Translations under genes and position numbers: made by a program | The notes under the pieces: generated by a model | Database searches by the model: none | What the model saw: only the letters and a program-made list of their open reading frames with translations | Told to the model about the DNA's origin: nothing | Shown: positions 34,444 through 51,843 of the stretch, piece after piece | How positions within the stretch are numbered: position 1 is the first letter of the stretch | How the letters are laid out: each line of letters opens with the position of its first letter | Virus record (IMG/VR): IMGVR_UViG_3300010413_000011 | Coordinates: 1-64,000 of that record | Length of the DNA: 64,000 bases | Origin: a virus | Direction: 5' to 3' (one strand)

Positions 34444-35173
34444 TGATTAACCTTTGTGTTCTCGCGTCGAGTTCACCTAAATGTAGTCGCTGTTTGAAAA
34501 TGATATAATCGATTTGTCCAGGACTCGCTGTCCCGTCCTCGAGACAATCCAGAGCCTCAAGGTATTTTCCGTCATCACCTAACTCGAGATCGACAGACTC
34601 GCCGTATTTCAATTTTCGAATTTCATTTTCGATTTTGTCGATCGAAATTAATTGGTTTGGTAAAGGAAATCTACCAAAACTTTTGAATCGTTTGATGTGT
34701 AATCTGATGTAGTCAGCATAAGAAATCCCATGCTCGTCTGCGATCGCTGCCGCCTTGACTAAAAAGTGATATACTTTTGAGGAAGGAGTTATAGGTCTTA
34801 AATGTTTGTTACCCAGGTGTTGAGATCTGAGCAGAGTATAAATTCGATTAAAGTGGTCAACCTTAGATTCTTGACTAACCACCGGCTTCGATGTCACTTC
34901 GAATCTTGCCAAATTGTTTAAGCGGATGGCGACAATGGAGCCATCTCTTCTAATGAGACCAGACTTCCTCAAGGTCTTCATACACCGTTTGGCATCTCTT
35001 AGTTCAATATCTAAAGTACTCGCCCATTCGCTCGCCTTCATTGGGATTTTCGATACGAATCGATATCTCATATACATCGAAACATAGAAAAATCTTGCCT
35101 CCAAAGGTAGGTCAAGTGTGTTTAAAGAGACGACAACTCGTCGAGTTTCAGCTAATACTTTTTCAGATTTCAT
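34406..35173 (-). CDS. Winged-helix replication protein, unknown family
   Basis: A 255-residue protein. I chose the ATG at 35173 because it follows GAGGAT; an in-frame ATG at 35185 lacks a good site. Residues ~20-110 read as a winged helix (LPLEARFFYVSMYMRYRF, ASEWASTLDIELRDAKRCMKTLRKSGLIRRDG). The C-terminal half is helical and charged. It overlaps both the phosphoribosyltransferase and the primase-helicase genes, so the three are likely co-translated. Similar winged-helix proteins next to phage helicases act as initiators or loaders, but I can only infer that here. Confidence 0.55.
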   Translation of the reverse strand: MKSEKVLAETRRVVVSLNTLDLPLEARFFYVSMYMRYRFVSKIPMKASEWASTLDIELRDAKRCMKTLRKSGLIRRDGSIVAIRLNNLARFEVTSKPVVSQESKVDHFNRIYTLLRSQHLGNKHLRPITPSSKVYHFLVKAAAIADEHGISYADYIRLHIKRFKSFGRFPLPNQLISIDKIENEIRKLKYGESVDLELGDDGKYLEALDCLEDGTASPGQIDYIIFKQRLHLGELDARTQRLINGKKKSRRFCKE

Positions 35174-35645
35174 TGAGATCCTCATACGGAAAGACTACCT
35201 TGCCATCATTAGGACCTATTCGTTGGGAAAAATAAATGGGTCGATATAACGTCTGCCCTAGATCTCGGTAAAATATAAACGCGCCTAGAGATTTTACCGA
35301 CATGCCGCTAAAACAAGCACCCTGAAAAGTCAAACCAGTATCTAAAATATCGTCGACAAAAATACAGCGGCCAACCGGTCTATCTAATCTTATGTCGAGT
35401 TTAAGGAAGTGAGATAACATTACGGCGGGTATGAGACCGCCCCGGGGCTCGCCCCATAATTTCCAAAGATGGTTCGGAGACCAAACAGTTTCCTCGGGAA
35501 TAATTAGATGACCTTGAAGTTCTTTTTGTAGTCGTTCAAGTTGTCTAATATTTGTAGTAGCCAAAATTTTTTTAATATCGATTGCCATCAACTCGATGTA
35601 ATCTATATAATCCTTCCATTCAACTTTAATCGGATTCGAAGACAT
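35163..35645 (-). CDS. Type I phosphoribosyltransferase
   Basis: A 160-residue protein with the PRPP-binding motif CIFVDDILDTGLTFQG (about residues 94-109), preceded by GEPRGGLIPAVMLSH, typical of purine or guanine/xanthine phosphoribosyltransferases. The enzyme would join a free nucleobase to PRPP to give a nucleotide. A ribosome site, AAAAGGAG, lies before the ATG. It heads the minus-strand operon with replication genes. In a phage with possible base-modification genes it could salvage a normal or an unusual base; the substrate cannot be told from sequence. Confidence 0.75.
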   Translation of the reverse strand: MSSNPIKVEWKDYIDYIELMAIDIKKILATTNIRQLERLQKELQGHLIIPEETVWSPNHLWKLWGEPRGGLIPAVMLSHFLKLDIRLDRPVGRCIFVDDILDTGLTFQGACFSGMSVKSLGAFIFYRDLGQTLYRPIYFSQRIGPNDGKVVFPYEDLNEI

Positions 35646-35794: not shown

Positions 35795-36403
35795 ATGAAA
35801 TTCTTAATCGCAGTTTTAGGTACTCATGGCTCTGGCAAAACTGAAATCTGCCAAAAAGTCTCAAGTCTTATACGTCACGCATTCTCAGACCTATCTGTTT
35901 CCTCAGTAGATAAAAAAGATAGTGTACCGAGATCTTTGGCAGAGGCAACGCAGTTATATAAAAATATCGACCATCGAACCCAGGTAGAAATTTGTTTTAA
36001 GGTTTTAACAAATGCGATGGCCGGTCTTGTCTATTATGACGTCGTTTTTGTCGATCGACTATTGGTCGATTCTATTGCTTATATTCGAACGGCAGAAAAA
36101 GTCGATCGCGGTATTATTGCCTCTCTAGATTCAGCAATTCGTTTTTTGTTTTTCGAGAGTCCTCATATCCATACCATAGTAGCTGTTCCGGCACCGAGTT
36201 TTCCCCTACCTAAAGATAATTTCAGATTCGAAGACGAAGAGTATCGCCAATATATTTCAAGATTGATTACGCGAGAACTAATTCGAATGGCTATACCGTA
36301 TTATTTTCTTGATCAAAAATCTTTAGATGAACGAATAAGTTATCTGACGAGTTACGTCAGTTCAGCAATATCATTATCGAAATTGAAAGGAGAAAAACAT
36401 TGA
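35795..36403 (+). CDS. P-loop deoxynucleotide kinase-like protein
   Basis: A 202-residue protein with Walker A GTHGSGKT (residues 9-16), then a DVVFVDRLLVDS motif near 86-97 that resembles the DR(Y/L) substrate motif of thymidylate and AAA_28-type kinases. A C-terminal helical lid is seen. It probably phosphorylates a nucleoside monophosphate and belongs to the nucleotide-supply group with the genes downstream. The ribosome site AGGGAGG lies 12 bases before the ATG. Confidence 0.6.
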   Translation: MKFLIAVLGTHGSGKTEICQKVSSLIRHAFSDLSVSSVDKKDSVPRSLAEATQLYKNIDHRTQVEICFKVLTNAMAGLVYYDVVFVDRLLVDSIAYIRTAEKVDRGIIASLDSAIRFLFFESPHIHTIVAVPAPSFPLPKDNFRFEDEEYRQYISRLITRELIRMAIPYYFLDQKSLDERISYLTSYVSSAISLSKLKGEKH

Positions 36404-37215
36404 AAGTAGCTCACATAGTCGGTATTAACCATTTGAATTTGGTCAGGGATAAAAATTTCCATTTAGTTCTTGCTCATCTTCTCGACGAAAGTGCCACCTA
36501 CAGAAATTTCTATAAGGAAGTAGGTAACGAAGGTGCCTTTTTAATCTTGGACAACTCTGCGTTTGAGTTAGGCGAACCTTATCCGCCAGAGGAAATGATA
36601 AAACTAGGTAACGAAATCAACGCGTCGGAAATTATGGCGCCCGAGATTTACCAAGATGGCAGAGGAACGATCGAAGTAGTCGAGGAGTTTGCCGCAAAGG
36701 TTAAAGAATTAACTAATAAGAAATGGAATATCATAGCAACCATCCATGGTAAAACCTTCGACGATTGGATGAATTGTTTCAAAGCTATTATCTCGATCAA
36801 CAACATAACCACGATTGGTTTATCTTGTAGAGCGGCAGAGTATTTCACTGACCTACGGTCGAGTTCAGTCACCACCCAAAGAACTTTTAATCGGATTGGT
36901 CTTACTCATATCCTCAATAAAACCTGCGTCGGCAAGTTTACTCCTTTGAGACAGTACCATCTATTAGGTTCCACCGATCCTGTCCTCGAGTTAACTGTTC
37001 AAACGAAATACGATTGGATAAGAAGTATTGATACGAGTTCCGCTTTTGCTCATGGTTGTCAAGGTATAAACTTTGGTACCCGGGCTCTGGCAACCGAGAG
37101 GATAGGGGATATCGATTTCAATACGCCCCACGATCCTCATAAGATAAAAACCATTGTTCACAATATGAGAATACTTGACGAATTGGCAGGAGAAGAAAAT
37201 GATTTTACCAGGTAA
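36400..37215 (+). CDS. TIM-barrel protein resembling tRNA-guanine transglycosylase/DpdA
   Basis: A 271-residue protein starting with TTG on the stop of the kinase gene, behind AAAGGAG. The pattern AFLILDNSAFELGE (about 47-60), IMAPEIYQD, WNIIATIHGKT, IGLSCRA, HLLGS and IRSIDTSSAF (about 205-214) is that of a TGT-like barrel, with an Asp after the first strand pair (DNSAF) and a second Asp in SIDTSS. These positions correspond to the catalytic acids of base exchange enzymes. The four-residue zinc site of tRNA TGT is not seen. A DNA- or nucleotide-base exchange role is inferred. Related genes lie at 49.5-51.8 kb. Confidence 0.5.
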   Translation: MKVAHIVGINHLNLVRDKNFHLVLAHLLDESATYRNFYKEVGNEGAFLILDNSAFELGEPYPPEEMIKLGNEINASEIMAPEIYQDGRGTIEVVEEFAAKVKELTNKKWNIIATIHGKTFDDWMNCFKAIISINNITTIGLSCRAAEYFTDLRSSSVTTQRTFNRIGLTHILNKTCVGKFTPLRQYHLLGSTDPVLELTVQTKYDWIRSIDTSSAFAHGCQGINFGTRALATERIGDIDFNTPHDPHKIKTIVHNMRILDELAGEENDFTR

Positions 37216-37729
37216 CAAAGTAATAGACTTTATAGAAACTGATTTACCAAGGACCTACTATCCCGAAGGTGGGGTCTCTCCTGAACAATTACAACCGAAC
37301 GGAGTCGACTGTCGTTTATTTTTTGTAAGGAGAGTCGACCCGGATCGTATTATGATATTTCGTAAAAATGAGAAGGATGTACCAGAGCTGGAGATGGTCG
37401 AACCTATAATCCATAGGTCCTTTCATGAGCGCGACAAACAACACGCCTTTTTCAATTTGGAACCTGGGGCCTATAATTTTGAAATGGCCGAACGAATAAA
37501 AGTTCCTCAAGGTATTGCGGCAATGTTCTTTGGTCGGAGTACCCTTAACCGAAACGGAATACTCCTTTTGTCGTCGGTCTATGATACGGGTTATGACGGT
37601 AGAATAGGAGGGACGGCGTATGTCTGGCGGCGGATACAAATAGAAATGTTTGTTCGAGTCGGACAAATTGTTTGTTGGGAAGCTCACGAAACGAAGGAGT
37701 ATGACGGTCAATATGGCGACGGAAAGTAA
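37199..37729 (+). CDS. dCTP deaminase / dUTPase superfamily protein
   Basis: A 176-residue protein starting at ATG 37199 behind CAGGAG and overlapping the upstream gene by 17 bases. It shows the fold's signatures: GVDCRL near the start (about 35-40), FFGRSTLNRNGI (motif 2, with the Arg-Ser pair) and YDTGYDGRIGGTAYV (motif 3). Enzymes of this superfamily hydrolyse dUTP or deaminate dCTP and keep uracil out of DNA. A UDG-polymerase fusion directly follows, which suits that role. Confidence 0.75.
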   Translation: MILPGNKVIDFIETDLPRTYYPEGGVSPEQLQPNGVDCRLFFVRRVDPDRIMIFRKNEKDVPELEMVEPIIHRSFHERDKQHAFFNLEPGAYNFEMAERIKVPQGIAAMFFGRSTLNRNGILLLSSVYDTGYDGRIGGTAYVWRRIQIEMFVRVGQIVCWEAHETKEYDGQYGDGK

Positions 37730-40313
37730 ATGGCATAAGACTTCAATCGATCTTACTAGAAGTAAGCAGGGTCGTAAGACCTGTTTGAAGTGTCCTTGGT
37801 TTAAAAAGTTCGAGCAGGGAAAAACCGATTCGATCAACTTTTGTGTTGGCGGATACGGTTTAGTACCTGCCGATGTAATGATTGTTGGTGAGGCCCCGGG
37901 TTGGCCCGAGGCTAATGCGCGACCTCATCAACTTCATCCTTTCATGGGAGAGGATTCCTATATATTAGATTTCCTATTAAAAAAAGCAGGACTATCTCGT
38001 CGACAATTCTATATAACTAACGCTATCAAATGCAAACCTCTTCAATATGGCAAAGTCCCGATCGATATTGTTAACCGTTGTGCCTCACATCTTTGGTACG
38101 AAATAGAAATGGTTCAACCTAAATTAATAATTGCTCTAGGTGCTGACGCTCTCAAAGCCTTGACAGGTAGACCATTTTCGATAACACAGGAAAGAGGATT
38201 CAGGCGAACGTTTAGTGACTTCGTCAATTTAGAGAGAATAGGACTAGCTGAATCTAATTGGTCGGATCTCGAGGACGATTTCGGAGACATTTGGGTTTAT
38301 CCGATGAGACATCCTCATTTACTTTATAAAGATCCTAGATGGTTATCTACTTTTAAGTTCGACTTTAAAGAAATAAAACGGTTGATGAGAAAAGGATTTC
38401 CCGACCATAACGAACCACCTAAGATTAAAGTTACCGATACTCTAGAACGTTTCGAAGAATTCTATAAGGCGATTCAGAAGGCACCGGCTTACTCGGTCGA
38501 TACTGAAACGACCTCCACTAGTATGATTGATGCCAAAGCTCTCTGTATCTCCTTTTCATGGGGTAGAAAAAATACCTGGGTCGTACCACTGAGGGGCCAA
38601 GGAGGAAAAAGATTTTGGCAATCTGGTGCCGATGAAATTATTCGGAAGGACCTAAAACAAATTTTTAAGGAGAAAAATATTTATCGTATTGCTCAAAATT
38701 TTAAATTTGATTATAACGTTCTCCGGAAGGAAGGATTCGGTGAGGTTTATTTTGAGTTCGACACAATGACTGCTCATCACGTTATCGACGAGACCGGTCC
38801 TTACGATTTAGAAAATATTGCCAACTTTTACGGACTCGACCTTGGTTATTGGCCAGATTCGATTTGGAAATATACTCCTCGGAATAAAAAAGCTCAGTTT
38901 GCTGACATTCCAAATAAGATTCTCTGGCAATATACCGGAGTTGACGCGTGGACTACTTGGGAACTAGGTAAGCCGAACGGTGGTAGAGTTAGGACTGAAT
39001 TAGAGAAGAACCCTAATTTAGTTCGACTGGTTAAAGAAGTTACCTTCCCACTTTCTTATCCGTTAGCAGATATGGAATACTATGGAGTCAAGTTAAACCT
39101 AGATCGAATTGGGAAATTGGAAAAATTATATCAGAAAAAATTGGATATGATAACTGGTAGACTCCGCGTACTAGCGAATAAAGAAGATTTCAATCCCTTT
39201 TCTCCCGATCAAGTTATAGAATTACTATTCAATAAGTTGAAGATGACTACTAGAGGACTAACACCTGGTCGCAAACCAAAGACCGATGCCGATGTACTAG
39301 AGATAATGTTAAGAGAGGAACGGTCGCCCAAAAAGAGAACGATCCTTCGTCTCATAATTTTAGCTCGAAGTTACAGAGCAACAATTTCTAGAGAATTACA
39401 AGGGCTCCGAAAATTGGCTCCAGACGGAAATATAAGAACGACCTATTTGATTCCAGGAACCAGAACTGGTCGTCTCTCTTCAATAGGTCCCGACTTACAA
39501 AATGTCAAACGCGGTCCTGAAATCAGAAATTGTTTTACAGTAGAAGAGGACTCATTATTTGGAGGCGGTGACTACAAGGCGATAGAACTTCGACAAGCAG
39601 CGTTGTTAAGTGGTGACCCGGAGATGTTAGATATCTTTGAGAAGGGTATAGATTTTCATACAGTCACGACAGCTCGAGTTCGTAAAATACCAGAGGAGGA
39701 AGTTACCAAAGAACAGAGAGCACGAGGAAAAGCGGTTGTGTTCGGTGGAATAATGTATGGTAGATCGATTCAAACAATGGCCGACGAATATGATTTACCA
39801 TACGAAGAAGTAGAAGATATGATGGATGGAATAGCCGAGTTGTACCATGTATTCATGAAATGGCGTGAAAGCAATGTACGAGAGGCGAAAGAAAAGTTTT
39901 ATTTGGAAACGGCTTTTTGGAAACGGACTAGACATTTCCCTGCTTTCGAGATGATCGCGGATAGTAGATTGGCTAAGGTTCAGAGATTAAGGAATCAGTT
40001 AGGTCGCGAATTCAAACAGACGGTAGAGAAAACTGTTCGAGAATGTTACAATTATAGGATTTCCTCGCCGGCTGCCGATTGGGTTAATAAAGGAATTATT
40101 AGGCTTCATACTCGACTTCGCGAAGAGAATATGAAAACCTATTGTTTAATGCAAGTTCATGACGCGCTGTATTTGAGAGTATTTAAAAAAGAAGTTTTAT
40201 TCGTTAAACAGTTGATTAAAGAGGAAATGGAAACCACCTTGAGGTATAAAGGCAATAGACTTAAATTAGAATTTGATACTGAAATGGGAAGGTGTTGGGA
40301 TGAAAAAGAGTGA
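37713..40313 (+). CDS. Uracil-DNA glycosylase / family A DNA polymerase fusion
   Basis: An 866-residue protein from ATG 37713 (an ATG at 37701 is also possible; AAGGAG precedes both). Residues ~20-230 are a family 4-type UDG with iron-sulfur ligands C24/C27, C107 and C123, plus GEAPG (59-63) and TNAIKCKP. Residues ~250-440 are a 3'-5' exonuclease: VDTETTS, NFKFDYNVL, YTGVDAWTT. The rest is a Pol I core: GGDYKAIELRQ (motif A), RARGKAVVFGGIMYG (motif B, with Phe at the O-helix site) and MQVHDALYL (motif C, with Ala where most Pol I enzymes have Glu). SPO1-type polymerases also carry a UDG-like domain. This is the replicative polymerase. Confidence 0.88.
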   Translation: MATESKWHKTSIDLTRSKQGRKTCLKCPWFKKFEQGKTDSINFCVGGYGLVPADVMIVGEAPGWPEANARPHQLHPFMGEDSYILDFLLKKAGLSRRQFYITNAIKCKPLQYGKVPIDIVNRCASHLWYEIEMVQPKLIIALGADALKALTGRPFSITQERGFRRTFSDFVNLERIGLAESNWSDLEDDFGDIWVYPMRHPHLLYKDPRWLSTFKFDFKEIKRLMRKGFPDHNEPPKIKVTDTLERFEEFYKAIQKAPAYSVDTETTSTSMIDAKALCISFSWGRKNTWVVPLRGQGGKRFWQSGADEIIRKDLKQIFKEKNIYRIAQNFKFDYNVLRKEGFGEVYFEFDTMTAHHVIDETGPYDLENIANFYGLDLGYWPDSIWKYTPRNKKAQFADIPNKILWQYTGVDAWTTWELGKPNGGRVRTELEKNPNLVRLVKEVTFPLSYPLADMEYYGVKLNLDRIGKLEKLYQKKLDMITGRLRVLANKEDFNPFSPDQVIELLFNKLKMTTRGLTPGRKPKTDADVLEIMLREERSPKKRTILRLIILARSYRATISRELQGLRKLAPDGNIRTTYLIPGTRTGRLSSIGPDLQNVKRGPEIRNCFTVEEDSLFGGGDYKAIELRQAALLSGDPEMLDIFEKGIDFHTVTTARVRKIPEEEVTKEQRARGKAVVFGGIMYGRSIQTMADEYDLPYEEVEDMMDGIAELYHVFMKWRESNVREAKEKFYLETAFWKRTRHFPAFEMIADSRLAKVQRLRNQLGREFKQTVEKTVRECYNYRISSPAADWVNKGIIRLHTRLREENMKTYCLMQVHDALYLRVFKKEVLFVKQLIKEEMETTLRYKGNRLKLEFDTEMGRCWDEKE

Positions 40314-41652: not shown

Positions 41653-42570
41653 ATGATCTTAATTATCGACGGTAACAATGCGGCCTTCAGGGCTAATTCG
41701 GTTCTTACCATGAGTTGGAAGACCAAAAGGACAAGTGCCATTTTCGGAACTTTATCGATAGTTCGGTCAGTCATGAACAGAGTGGATCCTAGTAAAGTTA
41801 TCGTCGTATGGGACATCGGCGGTTCAAAATACCGAAAAAGATTGTTTCCTGAGTATAAAAAGAAACGAATCGAAAAAAGAGATGACGATGATTTCCAAAC
41901 TTTCATCGACCAAGTTCAAATACTCAGAGATCGAATCTTTCCAGTTCTAGGGATTACTCAAGCGGTAAAGTCTGGAGTCGAAGCGGATGATGTTATATAT
42001 CGTCTCGCAAAATACTACTCGGTTAAAAAGGAAAAAGTGATTATACTTTCGGGAGATACCGACTTGTATCAATTGGTGAGCAAACGAGTTTCAATAATCT
42101 CACCTAGTCGGAAACGAAACGATTTTATAACCAATAAAAACTTTACCCGGATTACTAAAGGATTGGATCAAGATCAATTTGTGTCATACAAAATGTTAGT
42201 CGGAGATCCTTCCGATGGTATCCCGGGCGTACCAGGTTTCGGTGACAAAACTTCTCGTGTGGCCTTGGGACACTATAAGTCGGCAGAGGAGGCGGTCGAG
42301 CATTATGACGAACTGGTTAAACTGATGCCTCGGATTGCCAGATATGTAACCAGTAAGAAGGCAGAGAGTATCGTTGACCGAAACCGAAAATTAATCGATT
42401 TAAGTATCTACAATCGACCGAAACGGGTAAAGGCTTCAACGAAATTATTAATTGAGTCTGAACTAAATGAACAGGAATTTCGAAAAATTTGTAAAGAGTT
42501 CGGGTTCGTTTATATACTATCTAATTTTATGGATTGGATTGAACCATTCAAAGAGTTGGACAGGGGGTGA
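41653..42570 (+). CDS. 5'-3' exonuclease / flap endonuclease
   Basis: A 305-residue protein with the PIN/FEN nuclease acids: ILIIDGNNAAF (D6), VVWD, GVEADDVIY (about 112-120), SGDTDLYQL (about 135-143) and LVGDPSDGIPGVPGFG, the helix-hairpin-helix DNA-binding site near residue 180-195. It removes RNA primers and flaps in lagging-strand synthesis, as T4 RNase H or the Pol I N-domain does; the phage Pol I lacks that domain. The next gene begins within 3 bases. Confidence 0.85.
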   Translation: MILIIDGNNAAFRANSVLTMSWKTKRTSAIFGTLSIVRSVMNRVDPSKVIVVWDIGGSKYRKRLFPEYKKKRIEKRDDDDFQTFIDQVQILRDRIFPVLGITQAVKSGVEADDVIYRLAKYYSVKKEKVIILSGDTDLYQLVSKRVSIISPSRKRNDFITNKNFTRITKGLDQDQFVSYKMLVGDPSDGIPGVPGFGDKTSRVALGHYKSAEEAVEHYDELVKLMPRIARYVTSKKAESIVDRNRKLIDLSIYNRPKRVKASTKLLIESELNEQEFRKICKEFGFVYILSNFMDWIEPFKELDRG

Positions 42571-42572
42571 CC

Positions 42573-43550
42573 ATGTATGGTTATCAAATTTATCTGACCC
42601 ACGGCTGTAATCTGCGGTGTCGGCAATGTGGTGTCTGGAGGGCCAAATCGATCGGTCGGGAAAAACAATGGACCGAATGGGCAGCTATCCTACCGACCAT
42701 GGTCCAGGTTTTCGAGAAAACATTTCATCGGAAACCAGCGTTCAAATTGATGGGAGGCGAACCAACAATTTATCCGGGTTTCGAAGAAGTTTGTAGAGCA
42801 ATTAAAACACTCGGTTGTAATATTTCTGTTCTGTCGAATGTTAGTAAAACCTGGCAGTGGGAAATGTTGACTCGAGTTTTGGGAAAAGGGGATTCAATTT
42901 TCGTTTCAATGGATTTCTTTCCGAATAGAAGGAAACAATATGAGATGAGATCCGATCCGGCAGAAGAGAAGGCTTTTGCTGCCCTCCATTTCATCGAGAC
43001 CTTTCCCGACAACCAAACCGATTTCGAGGTCGGCGTAAATATTACGGTATCTTCGGATACCTTGCCTAGATTATCTGGCCTTATTGATTGTTTGGTTCAG
43101 TTGAACGCTAAGATGAATATTTGTCTTCGGCAAGGCAGCGAACCGAATGAGGACGAACTCTACCACGTTCTTAGGGCACCGAATCGAACTGGCAATTTAA
43201 ACCAGGAGGAGGTCGACCAGTTAGTCAAAATTATGCTATCCGACTTATTGCCAGTTCCAGATCTTTTTCTCGGATCAAAGGAATACATTAGGATAATTCA
43301 GGTTCACGGAGCGAATAACGATTGGCATTGTAGAGATCAACTCCACCTTCCGTATATTTATTTGGATTGCGATGGTTCGGTAATGGCGTGTCCAGACGTC
43401 GCCTTACCAGATCCTCAGGTTTTACCTTTAGCGAGTCCGACTCCTTTTGTTTGGACCGAGAGGATGTTGAAGACCTATCGTGCCAAATGTTGTGGCTGTA
43501 CTATTTCGTCAGCGATGACCGATGTTGTCGCAGCACTCTGGGAGAAATAA
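42573..43550 (+). CDS. Radical SAM enzyme with C-terminal cysteine-rich region
   Basis: A 325-residue protein; ATG 42573 follows GGGGGTGA. The N-terminus has the cluster motif GCNLRCRQC (C12, C16, C19), FKLMGGEPTIYPGF (SAM-binding GGE) and ISVLSNVS. The C-terminal part has more cysteines in LDCDGSVMACPD and KCCGC, as in SPASM/twitch auxiliary clusters. Such enzymes make radicals for peptide, cofactor or base chemistry; the substrate cannot be told. The first cysteine loop is not of the QueE type. It is the first gene of a tight cluster with an aldehyde:ferredoxin oxidoreductase two bases downstream. Confidence 0.75.
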   Translation: MYGYQIYLTHGCNLRCRQCGVWRAKSIGREKQWTEWAAILPTMVQVFEKTFHRKPAFKLMGGEPTIYPGFEEVCRAIKTLGCNISVLSNVSKTWQWEMLTRVLGKGDSIFVSMDFFPNRRKQYEMRSDPAEEKAFAALHFIETFPDNQTDFEVGVNITVSSDTLPRLSGLIDCLVQLNAKMNICLRQGSEPNEDELYHVLRAPNRTGNLNQEEVDQLVKIMLSDLLPVPDLFLGSKEYIRIIQVHGANNDWHCRDQLHLPYIYLDCDGSVMACPDVALPDPQVLPLASPTPFVWTERMLKTYRAKCCGCTISSAMTDVVAALWEK

Positions 43551-43551
43551 A

Positions 43552-45462
43552 ATGATACTTTCTGCTCCTAAAATTGCCCATATTGGCTTGGACAATCGAG
43601 TTTACCAAACTCATTGCCTTCATCCGAAAAATTTTTTACAATTTTTGGGAGGGCGAGGATTGAACAGTCATCTGACTTTTCAAAACCGCTCTATTAATTT
43701 CCCGATGGTTTTTATTACTCCAGGGTTGTTGACTGGAACTCTGTGTCCATCGTCGTCTCGCTGTACTATTGGTACTAATATATCACCCTCTTTAGGAAGA
43801 TGGGCTGATGGGAATCTCGGAGGATTTTTTGGAGCTGAACTAAGAAGAGCAGGTTGGAATCAAATTTGGTTAGAAGGTATTTCCGAAAAACCTATTTTAA
43901 TATATATTGAAAACCAAAAAATAAAAAGTGTTGACGCTGGTAATCTTTGGGGACTCGGAGTTCATGACACAACTGAGAGAATCCGAGAAGAGTTTGGGCC
44001 GGACGCTCAGTCTCTTGTAATCGGGCCGGCCGGAGAAACCCAGGTCGCGTACGCCTGCGTTATGTCGGGCGATAGAGCGGCAGGAGGAGGCGGTATTGGT
44101 GCCGTCCTCGGGAAAATGAAAGTCAAGGCGATCGTTGTTCGGGGAACTAGAGGTCTTGAACCTGCCCAACCCGAGGAGTTTATGGACGCTTGTCTGGCGG
44201 CTCATAAACAAGTTCGATCGAATCCTTTGTTCGGTGAGTTTTCACAATCTGGTACTTCAATTATTACATCCATTTATAAAGGAGTCAAAGCACTACCGGT
44301 TAATTATTGGGATAAAGGAGATTCGCCACACGCTTACAAATTCGAACCAGGAAATTTGAAGACGAAAGTTGTAAAAAGTCGAGCTTGCTATGGTTGTTCG
44401 ATTCATTGCTCTCATGAACTTACTTTCGGGTTCGAAGGGGTAGAGTACGAGGCGTTGAACGGGCTCGGTCTTAAAATTGGAATCACCGATCTAGACGAAT
44501 GCCTTCGTTTGATAAAATGGTTCAACAACCTGGGTCTCGATGTAGTCCAGACCTCTGGCGTTCTAGGTATGTTGATGAAAATGACCGAAGATGGCTTCGC
44601 GATGAATATGGATCGAATTAAATTTGGAGATGCTGAGGCTATTTGGACGCGAGTTGCTAGTTGGATGGATAGTAGAAGAAGAGATCTCAGTTTTTGGAAT
44701 GGTCTTGACGCCGGGTTCGAAAGATATTCTGAGATATTTCCTCCAGGTCCTGACGGAAATAAGGGCGATGTTCTTAAACGATTCCGTCGAAAGTATTCGG
44801 TCGATATTAAAAATTCAATGCCACCCAGCCTAGACTTCAGGGTTCCAGAAAACTTTGCGGCTACTATTGCTTGTATGACGGCTACTCGAGGCGCTGACCA
44901 TCTTAGAAGTTTGGCACCGATTGAGGCCTACGGTCAGTGGTACGGGAGAGAGGATCTCGAGGCGATGGCTATTCATTTTGGAATACCATCTGATATTATG
45001 AAAGAATGGTTGGACCTGGACGGGTTCGATCCTAAAATAAATTCGAAAAGTATAAGAGGAAAGGTTGCTATCATTTCTTACTTTCAAGATCAAAATGCTG
45101 TGACCGATGCCCTGGGTCTTTGTCGATTCGCCTCAAGTTGGAGAATGGGAGTCGGCCTCGAGTTGATGGCGGAGATGGTTTCGACTTTTCTTGGTATAGA
45201 TATGAACTGGTGTGGCCTGCGAGCAGTGGGCCAGAGGATAACCGTCTTAGAAAGATATCTGAACTCGAAAGTGTACGGCATGAATAAGTTCAGTGATTAT
45301 CCTCCCGAGAAATTTTTCGTAGAGCCTTTGAATGGGAGGAATCAACTCTCACATCATGACGTAAGATCAGCCCGCGATCAGTTCTATGAGTATAACGGAT
45401 ATGACGAGCAGGGATGTCCGACACCGGATACTTTTGAAAAATTAGGATTGGTTGTCAAATGA
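43552..45462 (+). CDS. Aldehyde:ferredoxin oxidoreductase family tungstoenzyme
   Basis: A 636-residue protein of full family length. It has GGRGLN (33-38), PGLLTGT (57-63), a GGGGIGAVLGKMKVKAIVV pterin-binding motif (178-196), the [4Fe-4S] ligands C279, C282 and C286 in CYGCSIHC and a fourth Cys at 524 in DALGLCRF, VEYEALNGLG (298-306) and RGADHLR (446-452). These are the conserved sites for a bis-tungstopterin and an adjacent cluster, so the enzyme looks intact. The family oxidises aldehydes or, in reverse, reduces carboxylates or activated rings with ferredoxin. It needs a host tungstopterin cofactor. It sits between a radical SAM gene and its likely electron-transfer ferredoxin. This is not a usual phage gene. 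Confidence 0.88.
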   Translation: MILSAPKIAHIGLDNRVYQTHCLHPKNFLQFLGGRGLNSHLTFQNRSINFPMVFITPGLLTGTLCPSSSRCTIGTNISPSLGRWADGNLGGFFGAELRRAGWNQIWLEGISEKPILIYIENQKIKSVDAGNLWGLGVHDTTERIREEFGPDAQSLVIGPAGETQVAYACVMSGDRAAGGGGIGAVLGKMKVKAIVVRGTRGLEPAQPEEFMDACLAAHKQVRSNPLFGEFSQSGTSIITSIYKGVKALPVNYWDKGDSPHAYKFEPGNLKTKVVKSRACYGCSIHCSHELTFGFEGVEYEALNGLGLKIGITDLDECLRLIKWFNNLGLDVVQTSGVLGMLMKMTEDGFAMNMDRIKFGDAEAIWTRVASWMDSRRRDLSFWNGLDAGFERYSEIFPPGPDGNKGDVLKRFRRKYSVDIKNSMPPSLDFRVPENFAATIACMTATRGADHLRSLAPIEAYGQWYGREDLEAMAIHFGIPSDIMKEWLDLDGFDPKINSKSIRGKVAIISYFQDQNAVTDALGLCRFASSWRMGVGLELMAEMVSTFLGIDMNWCGLRAVGQRITVLERYLNSKVYGMNKFSDYPPEKFFVEPLNGRNQLSHHDVRSARDQFYEYNGYDEQGCPTPDTFEKLGLVVK

Positions 45463-46079
45463 GAAAAGAACGAATTAAAAGTCTATGGAGTCATCTTACA
45501 TCGACACCGGTCGAAATCGTTCGAGGTTTTTCTCGTGCCGTTGTTTTGGTGACAAGGCAGTTAATCCTTTTAGAGAATCCTGTAGAAAGGATCTTACCGA
45601 AGTCAGCGCTCCTCTGTTCTTTTCAGCCTAAAAAACTTTCATACGAAAAGGCTGACTCATACCTGGGTTTCCTCCTAACCAAAAGGATTAGAGTCGATTA
45701 TACTAAATGTACGGGCTGTAAGGCATGCGAGTTGGCGTGCTCTTTAAACCATTACGGACGCTGCGAACCCGAGGAATCGAGAATCAGAATTGACCGACAA
45801 TGTAAAAAGTCGGCAGAGTTCTTTCCTTTCGTTTGTCAACACTGTACGATGCCCGAATGCGTTGTGGTCTGCCCGTCTGGAGCTTGTACGAGAACAAAAG
45901 AAGGTCTCGTAGTCGTAGACCCGGAACTTTGTATTGGTTGTAAACTTTGTATAATCGTTTGTCCGCTGAGTTCAGCGGCATGGAATTGGAGATTAGGTCA
46001 ATCGATGAGATGCGATCTTTGCGAAGGTGAACCGGTCTGTGTCAAGGTTTGCTCGACTAAGGCCATCGATTTTCATTGA
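45459..46079 (+). CDS. Ferredoxin-like electron-transfer subunit (four [4Fe-4S] sites)
   Basis: A 206-residue protein whose ATG overlaps the stop of the oxidoreductase gene. Residues ~75-206 have cysteine patterns for four clusters: CTGCKACELAC, CQHCTMPECVVVC, CIGCKLCIIVC and CDLCEGEPVCVKVC, as in HycB-type and AOR-associated ferredoxins. The first ~70 residues are a basic extension with a hydrophobic stretch (AVVLVTRQLILL) not usual in this family. It probably carries electrons to or from the tungstoenzyme. Confidence 0.85.
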   Translation: MRKERIKSLWSHLTSTPVEIVRGFSRAVVLVTRQLILLENPVERILPKSALLCSFQPKKLSYEKADSYLGFLLTKRIRVDYTKCTGCKACELACSLNHYGRCEPEESRIRIDRQCKKSAEFFPFVCQHCTMPECVVVCPSGACTRTKEGLVVVDPELCIGCKLCIIVCPLSSAAWNWRLGQSMRCDLCEGEPVCVKVCSTKAIDFH

Positions 46080-46090
46080 GGAGATAGATC

Positions 46091-46351
46091 ATGGTAGAAA
46101 CAGAGCAACAAAAAGTCTATGAGGCTCTAGTTGGTTTAGGATATATTTACGGAGTGAATTGCGCACTAGAGCATATAGGCATTGACCATCGAATAATGCC
46201 AGAACAGGATGACGAGAAAGAAGGAATACTCTATCCTTGGTACGATAAAGGACCATCGGGACAAATGGAAAAGAAATTAAAACAATTGGCAAGTAATTTG
46301 GTTCAAGATGGAATTTCAGTAGCTGACGTGGAACAATGGGGTTCGTTTTGA
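46091..46351 (+). CDS. Small hypothetical protein in the redox cluster
   Basis: An 86-residue protein, mostly helical (QQKVYEALVGLGYIYGVNCALEHI, EKKLKQLASNLVQ), with GAGGAGATA before its ATG. No motif is recognised and there is only one Cys. Packed between the ferredoxin and UbiD-like genes, it may be a small partner of one of them. Confidence 0.5.
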   Translation: MVETEQQKVYEALVGLGYIYGVNCALEHIGIDHRIMPEQDDEKEGILYPWYDKGPSGQMEKKLKQLASNLVQDGISVADVEQWGSF

Positions 46352-46379: not shown

Positions 46380-47957
46380 ATGAAATGGAATGAAGGAATC
46401 TTTAAGGCAAGAGAATTTCCAGACGAGCCGTTGAGTATGTTTTCTTGCCTAGCGGAATTGTGTAATTCGCAACCATCGGTCCCCTGGAATTATGCTGGTC
46501 GAATGATTCGAGTAACCGAAAAAGTTTCGATCGACTACGAGATAATGAAATTCGTTCGCGCTTCGGCTGACGATCCCTCTGGATTTAGCCCCGGGTTCAT
46601 ATTCGAGAATGTTTCGAGTGAGATGGCACCAGATCCGAAAACGACTCGATATCCAATCTCTGTTGTCGCTGGAATGTATGGAACCGAGGCACGAGTAAGT
46701 CGTATATTGGATTGGTGTTTAGGAACCAAAGAAAAATTCGACTTAAGTACTCCGGCCTGGCGAAAATATCAGCGAGCGTTGAACAGAACGTCACATGGCG
46801 TGGTTCGGATTTTTCCCGAAAGAGACGACTTAGGTCATGTATACGACATTCGATACGAACTCCAAGACCTTCCGATTTGTCTTCACAACGAAAGAGACGG
46901 AGGTCGATTCATCACCGGAGGTGTCCAGATCGTCTGGGATCCGGAATTCGAATGTTATGTCTCTGGTATTCACCGAATGAAGGTCATCGATAAAAATACT
47001 CTCGGGTGTTTGGCTACCGGCGAAAGAAGGATCGGTAGAGCGATAATGAAATGGCATGAACGAGGATTTAAGGCACCTGTTATTACATTAATAGGAGCCG
47101 CACCTTGCGACGTTTTCGCGTCTCAAGCCAAAGTACCTCATAACACGGATAAGTATGCTGTCGCAGATCGCTTCACACCCGGAAACGAGAAGAGAGATTT
47201 TTGTGGTTGGACTCCTTCCAAACATGCGAAATACGCTCCCGACCACTTACATATTATCCCTACAGATTCTGAAATTGTTATTTTGGGATTAGTTCCATTA
47301 GGCGAACCGAACAAACCAAACCTTATTAACGACAACCCGTTTGGGGAATTTCCTGGTACCTATTCCTTTTCGAATACTTCCGCGGCTTGGAGAGTAGAAG
47401 TAGAATATGTTATGACCAGATCCGACGCACCGATCTATCAAACCATGACCACCGGATTCCCTGTGCTCGAGGATCATATTCTTTGTGGCACGGCGAATGT
47501 TCCTTACCTCTTCGAAATTCTTCAAAGAGCCTGTTCAGAAGTGGTCGATATTAGCTTGGGAAAAGAAGGCAACTATGTTTTCGATGCTCACGTTTCCATT
47601 AAAAAGAGAATGTCTGGCGAAGCGCGCAATGTTATTTTAGCAGCGCTCTCGACCGTCACTATAAAAAGTGTTTGGATATACGACGACGACATCGACGTTC
47701 ATAATCCTCGTGACCGGCAGTTCGCATGGAACACGAGATACCAGCCTGCGACCGATACAATTATTATTGGCCATCCTTTGGTTGGTTCGAGTCTCGATCC
47801 ATCTTGTCCTGTCTTTCGGCACACGACTAAGGTAGGTTTTGACTGTACCAAACCTTTAGGTCAGGAGGATCGATACAAAAAGGCTTTGTGGCCAAAGGAT
47901 GAAATAGAAATCTATTCGAAAAAAGTACTCGATTTAATCGATAAGTGGGAGGACTAA
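46380..47957 (+). CDS. UbiD-family (prenyl-FMN-dependent) decarboxylase
   Basis: A 525-residue protein of full family length, with AAGGAGA before the ATG. Its motifs follow UbiD: LPICLHNERDGGRFITGGVQ (164-183), SGIHRMKV with R199, NPFGEFPGTYSF with E323 (the usual proton-relay Glu), a DAPIYQT segment, the PVLEDH motif and the C-terminal DIDVHNPRDRQFAWNTRYQP and GSSLDPSC. The residue five before E323 is Asp318, where most members have Glu. UbiD enzymes remove or add a carboxyl group on aromatic or unsaturated rings using prenylated FMN made by UbiX; no UbiX gene is seen here. A phage copy next to an AOR is very unusual. Confidence 0.85.
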   Translation: MKWNEGIFKAREFPDEPLSMFSCLAELCNSQPSVPWNYAGRMIRVTEKVSIDYEIMKFVRASADDPSGFSPGFIFENVSSEMAPDPKTTRYPISVVAGMYGTEARVSRILDWCLGTKEKFDLSTPAWRKYQRALNRTSHGVVRIFPERDDLGHVYDIRYELQDLPICLHNERDGGRFITGGVQIVWDPEFECYVSGIHRMKVIDKNTLGCLATGERRIGRAIMKWHERGFKAPVITLIGAAPCDVFASQAKVPHNTDKYAVADRFTPGNEKRDFCGWTPSKHAKYAPDHLHIIPTDSEIVILGLVPLGEPNKPNLINDNPFGEFPGTYSFSNTSAAWRVEVEYVMTRSDAPIYQTMTTGFPVLEDHILCGTANVPYLFEILQRACSEVVDISLGKEGNYVFDAHVSIKKRMSGEARNVILAALSTVTIKSVWIYDDDIDVHNPRDRQFAWNTRYQPATDTIIIGHPLVGSSLDPSCPVFRHTTKVGFDCTKPLGQEDRYKKALWPKDEIEIYSKKVLDLIDKWED

Positions 47958-47958
47958 A

Positions 47959-48363
47959 ATGGCAAAGAAGAAAAGTTTAAACAATAGGGAAAGGGAAATC
48001 GGACGTAAGTTAGGAGTTACCCGGAGGGCTGAACACGACTATGCGACAGAGTTTGATCCTTTCGAACAAGGATACCGAGAGTCCATGGAACACGAGTCTG
48101 ACGAATTCAAATACGTTCTGCCCGGATGTTTCGGTAGGATGAATTTTTGGCCTCCTCGAGAAGAGTTGAAGGCCGTGTCTGGCATGGACGAAGGTTTCGT
48201 AATTCAAAAGGGAGTTGCTCAGTATTTGGAAGGTGAGAGACAAGCCGGGATTGTCAAAAAGTGTTTAGGTTGTTCTCAATACCAGCGATGTGCTTTGGCT
48301 ACCGTAGTTGGTAAAACTTCCTCAATCCGAGAGAAAACTAAACCTACTCCCGTAGACGAATAA
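47959..48363 (+). CDS. Cys-rich hypothetical protein
   Basis: A 134-residue protein starting immediately after the UbiD-like gene. It is basic at the N-terminus. Near its end CLGCSQYQRC (about 101-110) has three cysteines, which could bind metal or a cluster. No family is recognised. Tight spacing suggests co-expression with the UbiD-like and ThyX-like genes. Confidence 0.5.
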   Translation: MAKKKSLNNREREIGRKLGVTRRAEHDYATEFDPFEQGYRESMEHESDEFKYVLPGCFGRMNFWPPREELKAVSGMDEGFVIQKGVAQYLEGERQAGIVKKCLGCSQYQRCALATVVGKTSSIREKTKPTPVDE

Positions 48364-48383: not shown

Positions 48384-49349
48384 ATGAAAATCGAATTAAT
48401 GCGCCACACGGTTGAACCAGAAGAGCTGTTGGAAGAACTGGTAGAGCTTAGTTACCGGACGCAACACTTCCCGAAACACCCTGCTCTTGTCGAATTTAAG
48501 AGTGGTCGTCAAGTTCCTTTGACCCAATTGAAAAATCTTACCATGATTCCGAAACCCGGTACTGTGATCCCTGGGTTTGAAAAAGACGACGTAGAAGTTG
48601 TTAAGGTGATCCCCAGGACAGCAGAGAAGGCAGTCAGGTTCGCCATCGCCATCGGACATTTCGCTTTGTTCCGTCAGGTAACTGTAACCTGGAGAGTCGA
48701 ACTCAGCAGGAAATCTGTTCTTCATTATTTGAGATACCAACATACAGCAGAGAACATGGTGTCACAAAAATACCTCGACCAAGGTCAGTTCGAATTTATA
48801 ATGCCGACAACCCGAGATTATCCTCCCGAGGAACTCATGGTCTATAAAGAAGCAATGCAAACGATTCAGTCATATTATGAACGCCTTCGGAATTTCGGCT
48901 GGGACCCGGAGGATGCTCGACTGGTTTACCCGAACTCTGCTCTTCAAAAATTTATCTTCACCGCTAATATGGAAACCATGCGTCGGCTATTTGATATCCT
49001 ATGCGACGAGGACTACGTCGATGAGATGCATCGGTTCGGTTTGGCCATGTTGGCTACCATTAAAAAAGTTATGCCAGCGTTCGTATATGATTACAGATTC
49101 TATTCGAGGAATGACGACGGACATATTTATGCGAAGCGTCGGAGAAGAAAAGGTGGAGACAACGTTAAAGTGAATTGGACTGATCCGAATTGGATGGAGG
49201 AAGATGAGAAACGAGAAACCGACGAAGTTTGTCGACTCCAAGAAAAAATACCTAATGAGTTAATAAATTTTGCGAATGAAGGTCAACGATTCTTCACTGT
49301 AGTTCCTGAAAACGAAATTCCAGAACCGGAACATTGGGAAACAGAATGA
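48384..49349 (+). CDS. Divergent ThyX-like flavin-dependent thymidylate synthase homologue
   Basis: A 321-residue protein with AGGAGGA before its ATG. The overall ThyX outline is visible: GHFALFRQVTVTWRVELSR, then RYQHTAENMVSQKY (117-130), which aligns with the RHRxxSxNExSxRY motif but keeps only R, N, S and Y, and later ARLVYPNSALQKFIFTANMETMRRL, typical of the C-terminal half. ThyX makes dTMP from dUMP with FAD and methylenetetrahydrofolate. With several key residues changed, it may act on another pyrimidine or group, or may be inactive. It lies in the cluster with UbiD-like and DpdA-like genes. Confidence 0.65.
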   Translation: MKIELMRHTVEPEELLEELVELSYRTQHFPKHPALVEFKSGRQVPLTQLKNLTMIPKPGTVIPGFEKDDVEVVKVIPRTAEKAVRFAIAIGHFALFRQVTVTWRVELSRKSVLHYLRYQHTAENMVSQKYLDQGQFEFIMPTTRDYPPEELMVYKEAMQTIQSYYERLRNFGWDPEDARLVYPNSALQKFIFTANMETMRRLFDILCDEDYVDEMHRFGLAMLATIKKVMPAFVYDYRFYSRNDDGHIYAKRRRRKGGDNVKVNWTDPNWMEEDEKRETDEVCRLQEKIPNELINFANEGQRFFTVVPENEIPEPEHWETE

Positions 49350-49525
49350 AAGTAGTCGCAACACAACTAAAACTCGAGAACATAGAAATTCTCCACAATG
49401 CGAAGAAGGGAGATACGCTCTCCCTAAAAATAATTAATACGCAGGAAGTGCCACTTGATGAAGACGGACTCGACCCAGACAGCTGTCTCTTGGTTCTCTT
49501 CGGACGATTGGGAACCGGGAACTAA
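49346..49525 (+). CDS. Small hypothetical protein overlapping the DpdA-like gene
   Basis: A 59-residue product whose ATG overlaps the stop of the ThyX-like gene (ATGA). It overlaps the start of the next gene by 68 bases in another frame. The first ~45 residues look like a small beta domain (VVATQLKLENIEILHNAKKGDTLSLKII). No clear ribosome site is seen, so translation would depend on coupling. It may not be real. Confidence 0.4.
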   Translation: MKVVATQLKLENIEILHNAKKGDTLSLKIINTQEVPLDEDGLDPDSCLLVLFGRLGTGN

Positions 49526-50597
49526 CGATAGAATAGGTTTTGAAAAAGTTTGCAATAAAGGAGTGCGCCGAGACACTTACAACGGTTTATACTTTAAGGG
49601 TGGATCAGGCGCCTCTGAATTTTTCAAAACCGAGCCAGATCAAAAGCAGATCAAAATTCATCGAACCAAGATCTTCTTAACCACTACTCGAGCACAACAC
49701 ATGTGGGGCCTTCTCGACGCGAACTACCCTTACATTTTAATGTCGTTTTGGTACTACAAGACCGTGACAAATGTTTTCGGTTCCCTCCGGAATGCCTTTG
49801 CTGCTCGAGATAAAAACATCGACGATTTCGAAATTATGGTAGATAGCGGCTCGTACAGTGCTACGGTCAAAGGTACCTCGGTAGATCTGGATACTTATAT
49901 TGAATGGCTCTACCACGAAGAGGATAATGTCGATTGGTATGTTAACCTCGATACTCAGTTCAAACCAGAAGAGGGACTTCGAAACTGGGCGATCCTTTGT
50001 GCGAACGGATTACATGACGCCATTCATGTCCACCATAGACCAGAGCCTTGGAAGTACTGGGATATTATAGCAGATCATTGTGGAGAGTTTGGAGGTCTTA
50101 GTCCGATGCCTCGAGCAAAGAGAGGCGTTAAACTCGAGTACTTTACCAAAGCTCATTCAATGCACCCACAGAAGAAACTTCATTGGTTTGGCTCTGTCGA
50201 TAAAGAGTTGGCCAAAATGTTCGATGTATATTCTATGGACTGCTCGAGTGCTGACGCGGTCGCTTATCGCGGGATTGTTTGGACTCCTTGGGGAGCGGTT
50301 AACCTGGGTTTTAACCCGAACTACAGTAATCACATTGATCGCTTACCTCTTGACATCCGCTCTAAGGTCACCGAATGGTTTATGACACATGGTTTTGAGC
50401 TTCATGATTTAAGGCCCGGGAGACCCTATATGCCTTCGCATAGATTCAGAATTTATTTCAACGCACTGGGTTATCTCGCGTCCATGGTCGAGATTGAAAA
50501 AGAGAAAAGTTTAATTGAGTTACCAGATCCAGAATGGATTCGGTCTTCGGAAATTTATACTAATTATGAAAGTGAGTTACCAAAAGGATGGAAGTGA
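49458..50597 (+). CDS. DpdA/TGT-like base-exchange protein, copy 1
   Basis: A 379-residue TIM-barrel protein; ATG 49458 follows CAGGAAG. Patterns shared with DpdA and tRNA-guanine transglycosylases: FEIMVDSGSY (D129), VDWYVNLDTQF, AIHVHHRPEPWKYW, FGGLSPMP, LHWFGS and YSMDCSS with a second Asp. DpdA swaps guanine in DNA for a 7-deazaguanine base. The first ~65 residues are an extra domain. It is paralogous to the gene at 50821. No preQ0-synthesis genes (folE, queD, queE, queC) are in the window, so the base would come from the host or from elsewhere in the genome. Confidence 0.62.
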   Translation: MKTDSTQTAVSWFSSDDWEPGTNDRIGFEKVCNKGVRRDTYNGLYFKGGSGASEFFKTEPDQKQIKIHRTKIFLTTTRAQHMWGLLDANYPYILMSFWYYKTVTNVFGSLRNAFAARDKNIDDFEIMVDSGSYSATVKGTSVDLDTYIEWLYHEEDNVDWYVNLDTQFKPEEGLRNWAILCANGLHDAIHVHHRPEPWKYWDIIADHCGEFGGLSPMPRAKRGVKLEYFTKAHSMHPQKKLHWFGSVDKELAKMFDVYSMDCSSADAVAYRGIVWTPWGAVNLGFNPNYSNHIDRLPLDIRSKVTEWFMTHGFELHDLRPGRPYMPSHRFRIYFNALGYLASMVEIEKEKSLIELPDPEWIRSSEIYTNYESELPKGWK

Positions 50598-50824
50598 TGG
50601 CAACCTCGTATTTTAGAGGTCACAAAGGTTGGTACGACAATATTGAAAAAGTATGGAAGTATTTCGATACCAATCTTCCTATCGATCCTCGTCGCCCTTG
50701 TGTCCGATGTGGTAAAGAACCCACTCCCGAAGGTCATGACGCGTGTTTGGGACGGCTAGACGGTGCGTGGTCAGCCTGTTGTGGTCATGGAGTAATAGAA
50801 CCATATTTAAAAATTACATTATGA
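50597..50824 (+). CDS. Small zinc-binding protein between the DpdA-like genes
   Basis: A 75-residue protein whose ATG uses the last base of the preceding stop. Cys/His-rich: CVRCGKEPTPEGHDACLG (about 35-52) and SACCGHG (about 59-65) could bind one or two zinc ions. Similar short proteins with the pattern CxxCGxxPTxEGxDACLG occur in many phages without known role. It is overlapped on both sides by DpdA-like genes, suggesting a partner. Confidence 0.6.
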   Translation: MATSYFRGHKGWYDNIEKVWKYFDTNLPIDPRRPCVRCGKEPTPEGHDACLGRLDGAWSACCGHGVIEPYLKITL

Positions 50825-51843
50825 GAAACCCTACAACATTTAAAGTCGGAACCGGTCGAGTCATGGTCCCGCACGATCACAAAAAGACTCGACTTTTTCT
50901 TGCCGTTAGTAACATGACAAGTTTTAGACCGATCGTCCGCTATACCTATCCATATCTTTTGATGAGTTATGCCTTTCTGAGAAGGTGGTGTCGGAGTTGG
51001 CGCTGTAACTCGATGAAGGAACTCTTTGCTTTATATGGTGGTGACATTCGAGACTTCAAAATAATGATTGACAGCGGTTCCTATACAGTCACGACTAAAG
51101 GAATTAATATAACAATTGACGACTATATAGAATTCCTATATGAAGAATGGGGTTCCTATAATTGGTATGTCAATTTGGATCTCCAATTTAAACCCGAAGT
51201 TGGCCTCGAGAACTATTTAATAATGTGCGCCAACGGCCTTCACGACGCAATTCATGTTCATCACCGACCGGAACCCTGGAAGTATTGGGATATGATTTGT
51301 AACGATATGGGTCCGTATGCCGGGCTCAGTCCCATGCCCAGGGCTTCAATGACGATCAAGAGAGAATATTTTTTGAAGGCCCATTCAATGCATCCCGATG
51401 TAAAAGTTCATTGGTTTGGGTCTGGCGCAATAACATTAATCAAACAGTTCGGTCCTTACTCTGTAGATGTTTCCTCTTATACTCAGATGGCTGGAATGGG
51501 TCATTGCTATTTTCCTTTTGGTACTTTCTACTTTGGTAGAAATACTTCGATTAAAAATTATTATGGAAACCTCGATAGTTCAATTCGAAAACAAATAAGA
51601 AAGTATCTCAAAACCGTTCCCCATTTTGTCGAAGATCGATTTATTAAACCCGAAGATCTGTTGTCACCAGTTCAAGATGAAACGGAAGCTCGTACCGCAG
51701 TCAATGTATGGTACTTCATGACTCATCTTCAATCGGCAATAAACGAAGAAAGAAATCTTTTGTCTCTTGAGGATGGTGACTTAATTCGCTACTCACCGTG
51801 GTATCACGGATGGGAAGATAAACCAATAGAGAAATGGAGTTGA
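50821..51843 (+). CDS. DpdA/TGT-like base-exchange protein, copy 2
   Basis: A 340-residue paralogue of copy 1, sharing long identical stretches such as LHDAIHVHHRPEPWKYWD, KAHSMHP and VHWFGS. The chosen ATG (50821) overlaps the preceding stop. It keeps both candidate catalytic acids: FKIMIDSGSY (D84) and YSVDVSS. It lacks the N-terminal extension of copy 1. Two adjacent, diverged copies may form a heterodimer, as some transglycosylases do, or act on different bases. Confidence 0.62.
   Translation: MRNPTTFKVGTGRVMVPHDHKKTRLFLAVSNMTSFRPIVRYTYPYLLMSYAFLRRWCRSWRCNSMKELFALYGGDIRDFKIMIDSGSYTVTTKGINITIDDYIEFLYEEWGSYNWYVNLDLQFKPEVGLENYLIMCANGLHDAIHVHHRPEPWKYWDMICNDMGPYAGLSPMPRASMTIKREYFLKAHSMHPDVKVHWFGSGAITLIKQFGPYSVDVSSYTQMAGMGHCYFPFGTFYFGRNTSIKNYYGNLDSSIRKQIRKYLKTVPHFVEDRFIKPEDLLSPVQDETEARTAVNVWYFMTHLQSAINEERNLLSLEDGDLIRYSPWYHGWEDKPIEKWS

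Follow-up and report, generated by a model that had tools for sequence, protein, structure and literature searches.

The UbiD-family gene at positions 46380-47957 of this viral DNA is real, complete and phage-borne, and the same record very probably encodes, as judged from sequence, the phage's own prFMN synthase, UbiX. We propose, at a probability of roughly 0.4, that this phage prFMN unit (de)carboxylates a nucleobase-type acid, most likely turning 7-carboxy-7-deazaguanine (CDG) into 7-deazaguanine, which DpdA-like enzymes would then put into DNA. The window, i.e. the whole 64-kb stretch analysed, covers positions 1-64000 of a virus record that is 92,700 bases long; features discussed below are collected in Table 1. 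The terminase large-subunit gene is split across the record ends (91681-92700 and 2-379), and because both ends fall within this one gene the record is probably near complete, which suggests a circular or permuted genome. The two terminase pieces do not join exactly, a short stretch being apparently missing.

Table 1. Features discussed in the text (window coordinates unless marked as record coordinates)
Feature	Position	Strand	Basis
Possible purine phosphoribosyltransferase	35163..35645	-	motif VDDILDTG
P-loop nucleotide-kinase-like protein	35795..36403	+	Pfam AAA_28 4e-8; directly upstream of DpdA-like c
TGT/DpdA-like protein c	36400..37215	+	homologs in Youna2, phiST, Campylobacter CP220 group
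Radical SAM protein, possibly AOR-associated maturase	42567..43550	+	Pfam Radical_SAM 4e-10
Aldehyde:ferredoxin oxidoreductase (AOR), tungstopterin family	43522..45462	+	AFOR_N 8.3e-50, AFOR_C 3.1e-65
Fe-S electron-transfer subunit/ferredoxin	45459..46079	+	best PDB matches: Fe-S subunits 9mqx_E, 8c0z_C of AOR complexes
Small ORF between ferredoxin and UbiD	46091..46351	+	no family match
UbiD-family prFMN (de)carboxylase, 525 aa	46380..47957	+	Pfam UbiD/UbiD_N/UbiD_C; AlphaFold2 and Foldseek
Small ORF directly 3' of UbiD	47959..48363	+	no family match
ThyX-like protein, degenerate signature	48384..49349	+	Pfam Thy1 3.2e-23; TIGR02170 under cut-off
TGT/DpdA-like transglycosylase a	49455..50597	+	PHROG 887 1.4e-15
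TGT/DpdA-like transglycosylase b	50743..51843	+	PHROG 887 5.8e-21
UbiX flavin prenyltransferase, 205 aa	record 89082-89699 (L003:10083-10700), outside the window	+	TIGR00421, Pfam Flavoprotein

The UbiD gene and its active site

The UbiD reading frame opens with an ATG preceded by AAGGAG, a consensus ribosome site, and its product exceeds the gathering scores of three Pfam domains (UbiD 4e-28, UbiD_C 2.9e-21 and UbiD_N 1.1e-5). It also matches the NCBIfam model for the UbiD subfamily (3.4e-58), although its 197 bits lie under that model's cut-off of 245. AlphaFold2, given a 46-sequence alignment, returned a model with a mean pLDDT of 84.0 and a pTM of 0.86, for which Foldseek found HmfF (2,5-furandicarboxylate decarboxylase, 6h6v) as the best PDB match (E 2.6e-35), together with the prFMN/FMN-bound structures of E. 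coli UbiD (5m1d) and AnInD (indole-3-carboxylate decarboxylase, 7p9q). Family and fold match far beyond chance, so that the UbiD-family identity proposed in an earlier, sequence-only reading stands, and the DIDVHNPRD and GSSLDPS blocks were found where that reading had placed them. HmfF and AnInD, the best matches in both sequence and structure, have the UbiD fold and the catalytic Arg/Glu pair in common with the phage protein; they differ from it in showing only 22-25% identity in structural alignments, in lacking its insertions near residues 268-287 and 308-312, and in carrying Asn and His where it has V194 and R216/R217.

The R-Xn-E/D-X4-E/D catalytic network described for UbiD enzymes is present as R199, D318 and E323, the counterparts of R173, the E277 position and E282 in Fdc1 (PMC5818171). 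R199 is invariant in all 96 aligned homologs and the column of E323 holds Glu in 95 of them, which confirms the catalytic pair read from the sequence alone. Asp318 had been singled out at the same time as an unusual residue, yet its column holds Glu in 85 homologs and Asp in 11, and Asp is common to the four nearest cellular relatives (L005, L006, L007 and L009); the alignment therefore presents it as a clade mark and a normal minority state, not as an oddity.

The true oddity of the phage enzyme, overlooked by the sequence-only reading, appears from the same alignment to be its phosphate end. Two columns, which by comparison with Fdc1 we take to be the Asn and His ligand sites for Mn/K and phosphate, are occupied here by Val194, where 90 of the 96 homologs have Asn, and by Arg216/Arg217, where 77 have His; neither V194 nor R217 occurs in any of the 96. 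Both presumed ligands, Asn and His, of the Mn2+/K+ site for the prFMN phosphate are thus replaced. In characterised UbiD enzymes this phosphate is bound through Mn2+ together with a monovalent ion (PMC7976604; for AnInD, PMC8988006), and the activity of HudA was highest with Mn2+ and K+ together (PMC7976604). We did not treat the replacement as disqualifying, since the two residues do not seem to define the family: the relatives in the sister clade keep Asn in four cases of four and His in two of four (Gln stands there in L005 and Asn in L009), and 6 of the 96 homologs lack the Asn. Perhaps an arginine could contact the prFMN phosphate directly in the phage enzyme. A third metal ligand (Glu/Asp; Ala286 or Tyr285 region) was left uncounted because conservation in its column is low and the model has little certainty in that region. 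Loss of the prFMN-binding site, which had been put forward as grounds for abandoning the proposal, is therefore seen in part, as an alteration of the phosphate end (V194, R216/R217), while the catalytic end (R199, E323) is intact.

UbiX and the gene neighbourhood

It had been stated that no UbiX is encoded and that the host must provide prFMN. The first statement is right for the 64-kb window and wrong for the rest of the record, in which a UbiX gene is located a few genes ahead of the terminase. Its product scores 136.2 bits against TIGR00421 (curated cut-off 108.9), matches Pfam Flavoprotein at 4.5e-36 as well as solved UbiX/PAD1 enzymes in the PDB, and retains every residue that does not vary across nine cellular UbiX proteins, including E49 and Y159, which by our own matching would correspond to E49 and Y169 of PaUbiX, residues whose roles have been studied (PMC6541611). 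With UbiX in the same 92.7-kb record, the host need not supply the cofactor. UbiX and UbiD lie about 41 kb apart in the phage, in contrast to many of the fetched cellular loci, in which both are found within a few kb. On this sequence evidence a functional phage UbiX/UbiD pair is likely. Shortly after UbiX, a second protein of the uracil-DNA-glycosylase superfamily is encoded (record 90309-90974; L003:11310-11975); a domain of the same superfamily is fused to the N-terminus of the family A DNA polymerase PolA (37650-40313).

UbiD itself stands in a plus-strand series that runs from PolA through a gp32-like SSB, a 5'-3' exonuclease, the radical SAM protein, the AOR, the Fe-S protein and a small ORF to UbiD, and onward through a second small ORF, the ThyX-like protein and two TGT/DpdA-like proteins to RNR and RecA, the last being called by reading of the sequence. 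The oxidoreductase nearby, already noted from the sequence alone, is shown to be of the AOR type by its AFOR_N and AFOR_C matches. Its true start is likely the ATG at 43552, and its PDB matches are Pyrococcus AOR (1aor) and the AOR complexes 9mqx and 8c0z, whose AFOR domains, cluster cysteines (Cys 289/292/296/534, all kept) and Fe-S subunit are matched by the phage genes; residues ~371-512 of the phage AOR are uncovered among the listed alignments to solved AORs. The radical SAM protein reaches 2.4e-8 against TIGR04317, the maturase model for tungsten oxidoreductases, which is far under the cut-off. An identity as QueE was rejected, since the protein was unmatched by phage QueE queries and its PHROG match was weak and partial; a match to viperin was also weak and far under cut-off.

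The two small ORFs flanking UbiD match no Pfam, PHROG or NCBIfam family, and no phage relative was found for the upstream one; that neither matched UbiD partners of the VdcD/LpdD/YclD type (Pfam, NCBIfam) is weak evidence. The ThyX-like protein is longer than usual and its signature reads RYQHTAENMVSQKY, at a position where the family has RHRxxSxNxxSxR; it may have another substrate or reaction. Elsewhere in the record, a SpeD-like S-adenosylmethionine decarboxylase (record 67943-68284, minus strand, L002; AdoMet_dc 2.4e-21) hints at possible polyamine synthesis by the phage. The window also encodes a sulfatase/phosphodiesterase-superfamily protein (61609-62679; Sulfatase 1.8e-28) and glycosyltransferase family 2 proteins (12804-15185 and 55882-56814), one of them with two GT2 regions.

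Relatives in cells and viruses

The genome scan for UbiD was restricted to one conserved pattern, and 80 loci were kept. In a tree the phage UbiD groups beside L005, L006, L007 and L009 (SH-aLRT 96), from Compostimonas, Oscillospiraceae, Bacillota and Chloroflexi, all of which likewise have Asp five positions ahead of the catalytic Glu. Its branch is very long (2.41), so that both its placement and a function shared with this sister clade are uncertain. Identity of the phage protein is 31-36% with the nearest cellular proteins that the searches gave and 31-33% with the sister clade. This clade is rare, with few members in ~300 genomes searched in each of two orders. Unlike the phage gene, these relatives are cellular, and several belong to N-heterocycle catabolic clusters. 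The UbiD of L009 is surrounded by genes for carbamate kinase, XdhA-like, PyrK-like and PyrD-like proteins and UbiX; that of L007 by a member of the allantoate amidohydrolase/carbamoylase family and a deaminase-like amidohydrolase; and that of L104, 74% identical to the L007 protein, by carbamoylase-family and dihydroorotase-family genes. Such neighbours suggest catabolism of pyrimidine- or purine-like N-heterocyclic rings. A comparable pairing of UbiD with AOR is seen in a cellular genome, an Anaerolinea MAG (L075), in which UbiD is followed by two AOR genes.

Among viruses, scans of viral contigs with UbiD, AOR, UbiX and one DpdA-like protein gave no close phage relatives; because such scans depend on short exact peptide patterns, a missing match is weak evidence and we make no claim of uniqueness. 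The UbiD and AOR alignments found nothing, and the UbiX alignment found three contigs, with aroQ and an integrase, a comM-like gene and a recombinase, and UbiD and a LysR regulator, respectively, beside UbiX; all three look to us like the margins of prophages, host genes included. An annotated phage collection held no convincing phage UbiD and no AOR, its UbiD and UbiX matches being judged mostly bacterial DNA. MW495066.1 (L004), AGRM01000002-3, AFYI01000004 and OR848109 resemble bacterial chromosome; in one of these records, "Microcystis phage MaAM05", UbiX is flanked by murJ, bioD and pcnB. BFVD contains one other putatively viral UbiD, of 309 residues, assigned to the metagenomic "Siphoviridae sp. 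ctwzt2". The literature searched yielded no UbiD or AOR as a phage auxiliary gene, and to our knowledge no phage has been shown to carry a complete prFMN (UbiX and UbiD) unit.

A possible route to a modified DNA base

The proposed mechanism would start with the phage UbiX, which would prenylate FMN with dimethylallyl phosphate or pyrophosphate to give prFMNH2; UbiD would mature this product and then (de)carboxylate a heteroaromatic acid. The most likely substrate would be CDG, made by the host QueE in the queuosine pathway, and its decarboxylation would leave plain 7-deazaguanine for insertion into DNA by the phage DpdA-like transglycosylases, while the AOR and its Fe-S subunit would work on molecules of this type as well, e.g. 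by reducing the carboxylate to a 7-formyl group. We infer enzyme activity, substrate, order of steps and DNA as destination alike.

Several observations speak for this scheme. UbiD and UbiX are found in one record; UbiD retains R199, E323 and D318, and its closest folds, HmfF, UbiD and AnInD, are decarboxylases of heteroaromatic or aromatic acids; and N-heterocycle genes adjoin UbiD in the Asp318-sharing sister clade (L009 and L007, also L104). Because the locus sits among PolA, the exonuclease, ThyX, two TGT-like genes, RNR and RecA, the gene context favours an altered base, and modified bases are a plausible substrate for UbiD. 7-Deazaguanine in particular is suggested by protein c, since its homologs in Youna2 and phiST lie close to QueD, QueE-like and FolE genes. 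As in known phage 7-deazaguanine systems, both conserved Asp columns are kept in all three TGT/DpdA-like proteins of the window, and the P-loop gene beside protein c recurs as a P-loop ATPase/NTPase gene next to the DpdA-like gene in phiST (gp041) and CP220 (CPT_0057). We take the phiST/CP220 type of protein to be the DpdA3 of Cui et al. 2023, who reportedly predicted a CDG decarboxylase, DpdL; dDG is known as an end product in phages. If the phage UbiD performs the DpdL step, it is probably no relative of DpdL, as the phage collection yielded UbiD homologs solely in records that are likely bacterial.

The phage differs from these systems in having no Que or FolE genes that we could find. Phage queries detected no QueD, QueE or QueC (phmmer, E<=1), and the sole FolE-query match at the same threshold was that of a VpKK5 ORF annotated as GTP cyclohydrolase, which fell on the possible phosphoribosyltransferase, a protein with no Pfam match and with E 0.003 to the purine phosphoribosyltransferase 1vdm over just 19 residues. 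CDG would therefore have to be host-derived. Such biosynthesis genes are not required where the host supplies the base, and host intermediates may be used by phages that encode only DpdA (PMC6884629). As for the reaction, indole-3-carboxylate is decarboxylated by the UbiD enzymes AnInD (PMC8988006) and HudA (PMC7976604), but HudA did not decarboxylate pyrrole-3-carboxylate (PMC7976604), the smallest analogue of CDG, and this weakens the case for CDG. The scheme as a whole is weakened as well by the changed residues at the presumed metal and phosphate ligands, by the very long UbiD branch and by the distance between UbiX and UbiD. We place a role of UbiD/UbiX in DNA modification at somewhat short of even odds and consider CDG as the substrate doubtful. 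Slightly more doubtful is the full picture, in which UbiX and UbiD, together with the tungsten AOR, make a DNA base of the 7-deazaguanine or 7-formyl-7-deazaguanine type from a carboxylated host base, with an arginine holding the cofactor phosphate where a metal site would normally do so.

These genes could instead be auxiliary metabolic genes that have nothing to do with phage DNA; while infection proceeds, UbiD/UbiX and AOR/ferredoxin would then serve an anaerobic metabolism of the host type, directed at aromatic acids and aldehydes. The adjacent UbiD and AOR genes of the cellular Anaerolinea genome fit this idea, as does the match of the phage AOR and Fe-S subunit to cellular AOR complexes; however, the surroundings of UbiD showed no recognisable CoA ligase, transporter or further catabolic gene, the UbiD and AOR genes are placed between replication and nucleotide genes, and the nearest UbiD clade has neighbours for N-heterocycles, not for aromatic degradation, so that we regard it as unlikely. 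The reactions might also run in the opposite direction, UbiD adding CO2 to a ring carbon and the AOR reducing the acid to an aldehyde, for a net formylation of a base or nucleotide C-H. UbiD reactions are reversible, AnInD with a carboxylate reductase gave indole-3-carboxaldehyde in vitro (PMC8988006), and the AOR gene lies upstream of UbiD on the same strand and stretch. Yet net carboxylation was assayed at a very high bicarbonate level, 1 M NaHCO3 (PMC8988006), and in a cell it probably needs a strong pull, which makes this direction quite improbable.

An altered or dead UbiD, binding FMN or a nucleotide poorly without the phosphate-site Asn and His and serving some other role, would agree with its private V194 and R217 and its long branch. 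It is nonetheless improbable, considering that the catalytic R199 and E323 are intact, that the His position had already changed in two members of the sister clade, L005 and L009, and that the phage retains a UbiX with conserved residues, which would be pointless without UbiD. That UbiD stems from contaminating host DNA or from a chimeric assembly, as the UbiD- and UbiX-matching phage-collection records that resemble bacterial DNA might suggest, is very improbable here: the gene lies within a continuous same-strand phage operon, its GC and GC3 (0.451 and 0.428) are in line with the flanking genes, its product is distant from the closest cellular proteins found, and UbiX stands a few genes ahead of the terminase.

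Our preferred reading, a phage prFMN unit acting on a nucleobase-type acid, bears on both the phage and the enzyme family. The Val/Arg phosphate site offers a test case for whether the metal site of UbiD enzymes is dispensable. If UbiX and UbiD feed DNA modification, they would bring a new type of cofactor into phage base chemistry and provide a concrete base-decarboxylase candidate that can be assayed, and, with the AOR taking part, prFMN and tungstoenzyme chemistry would join the DNA-modification repertoire.
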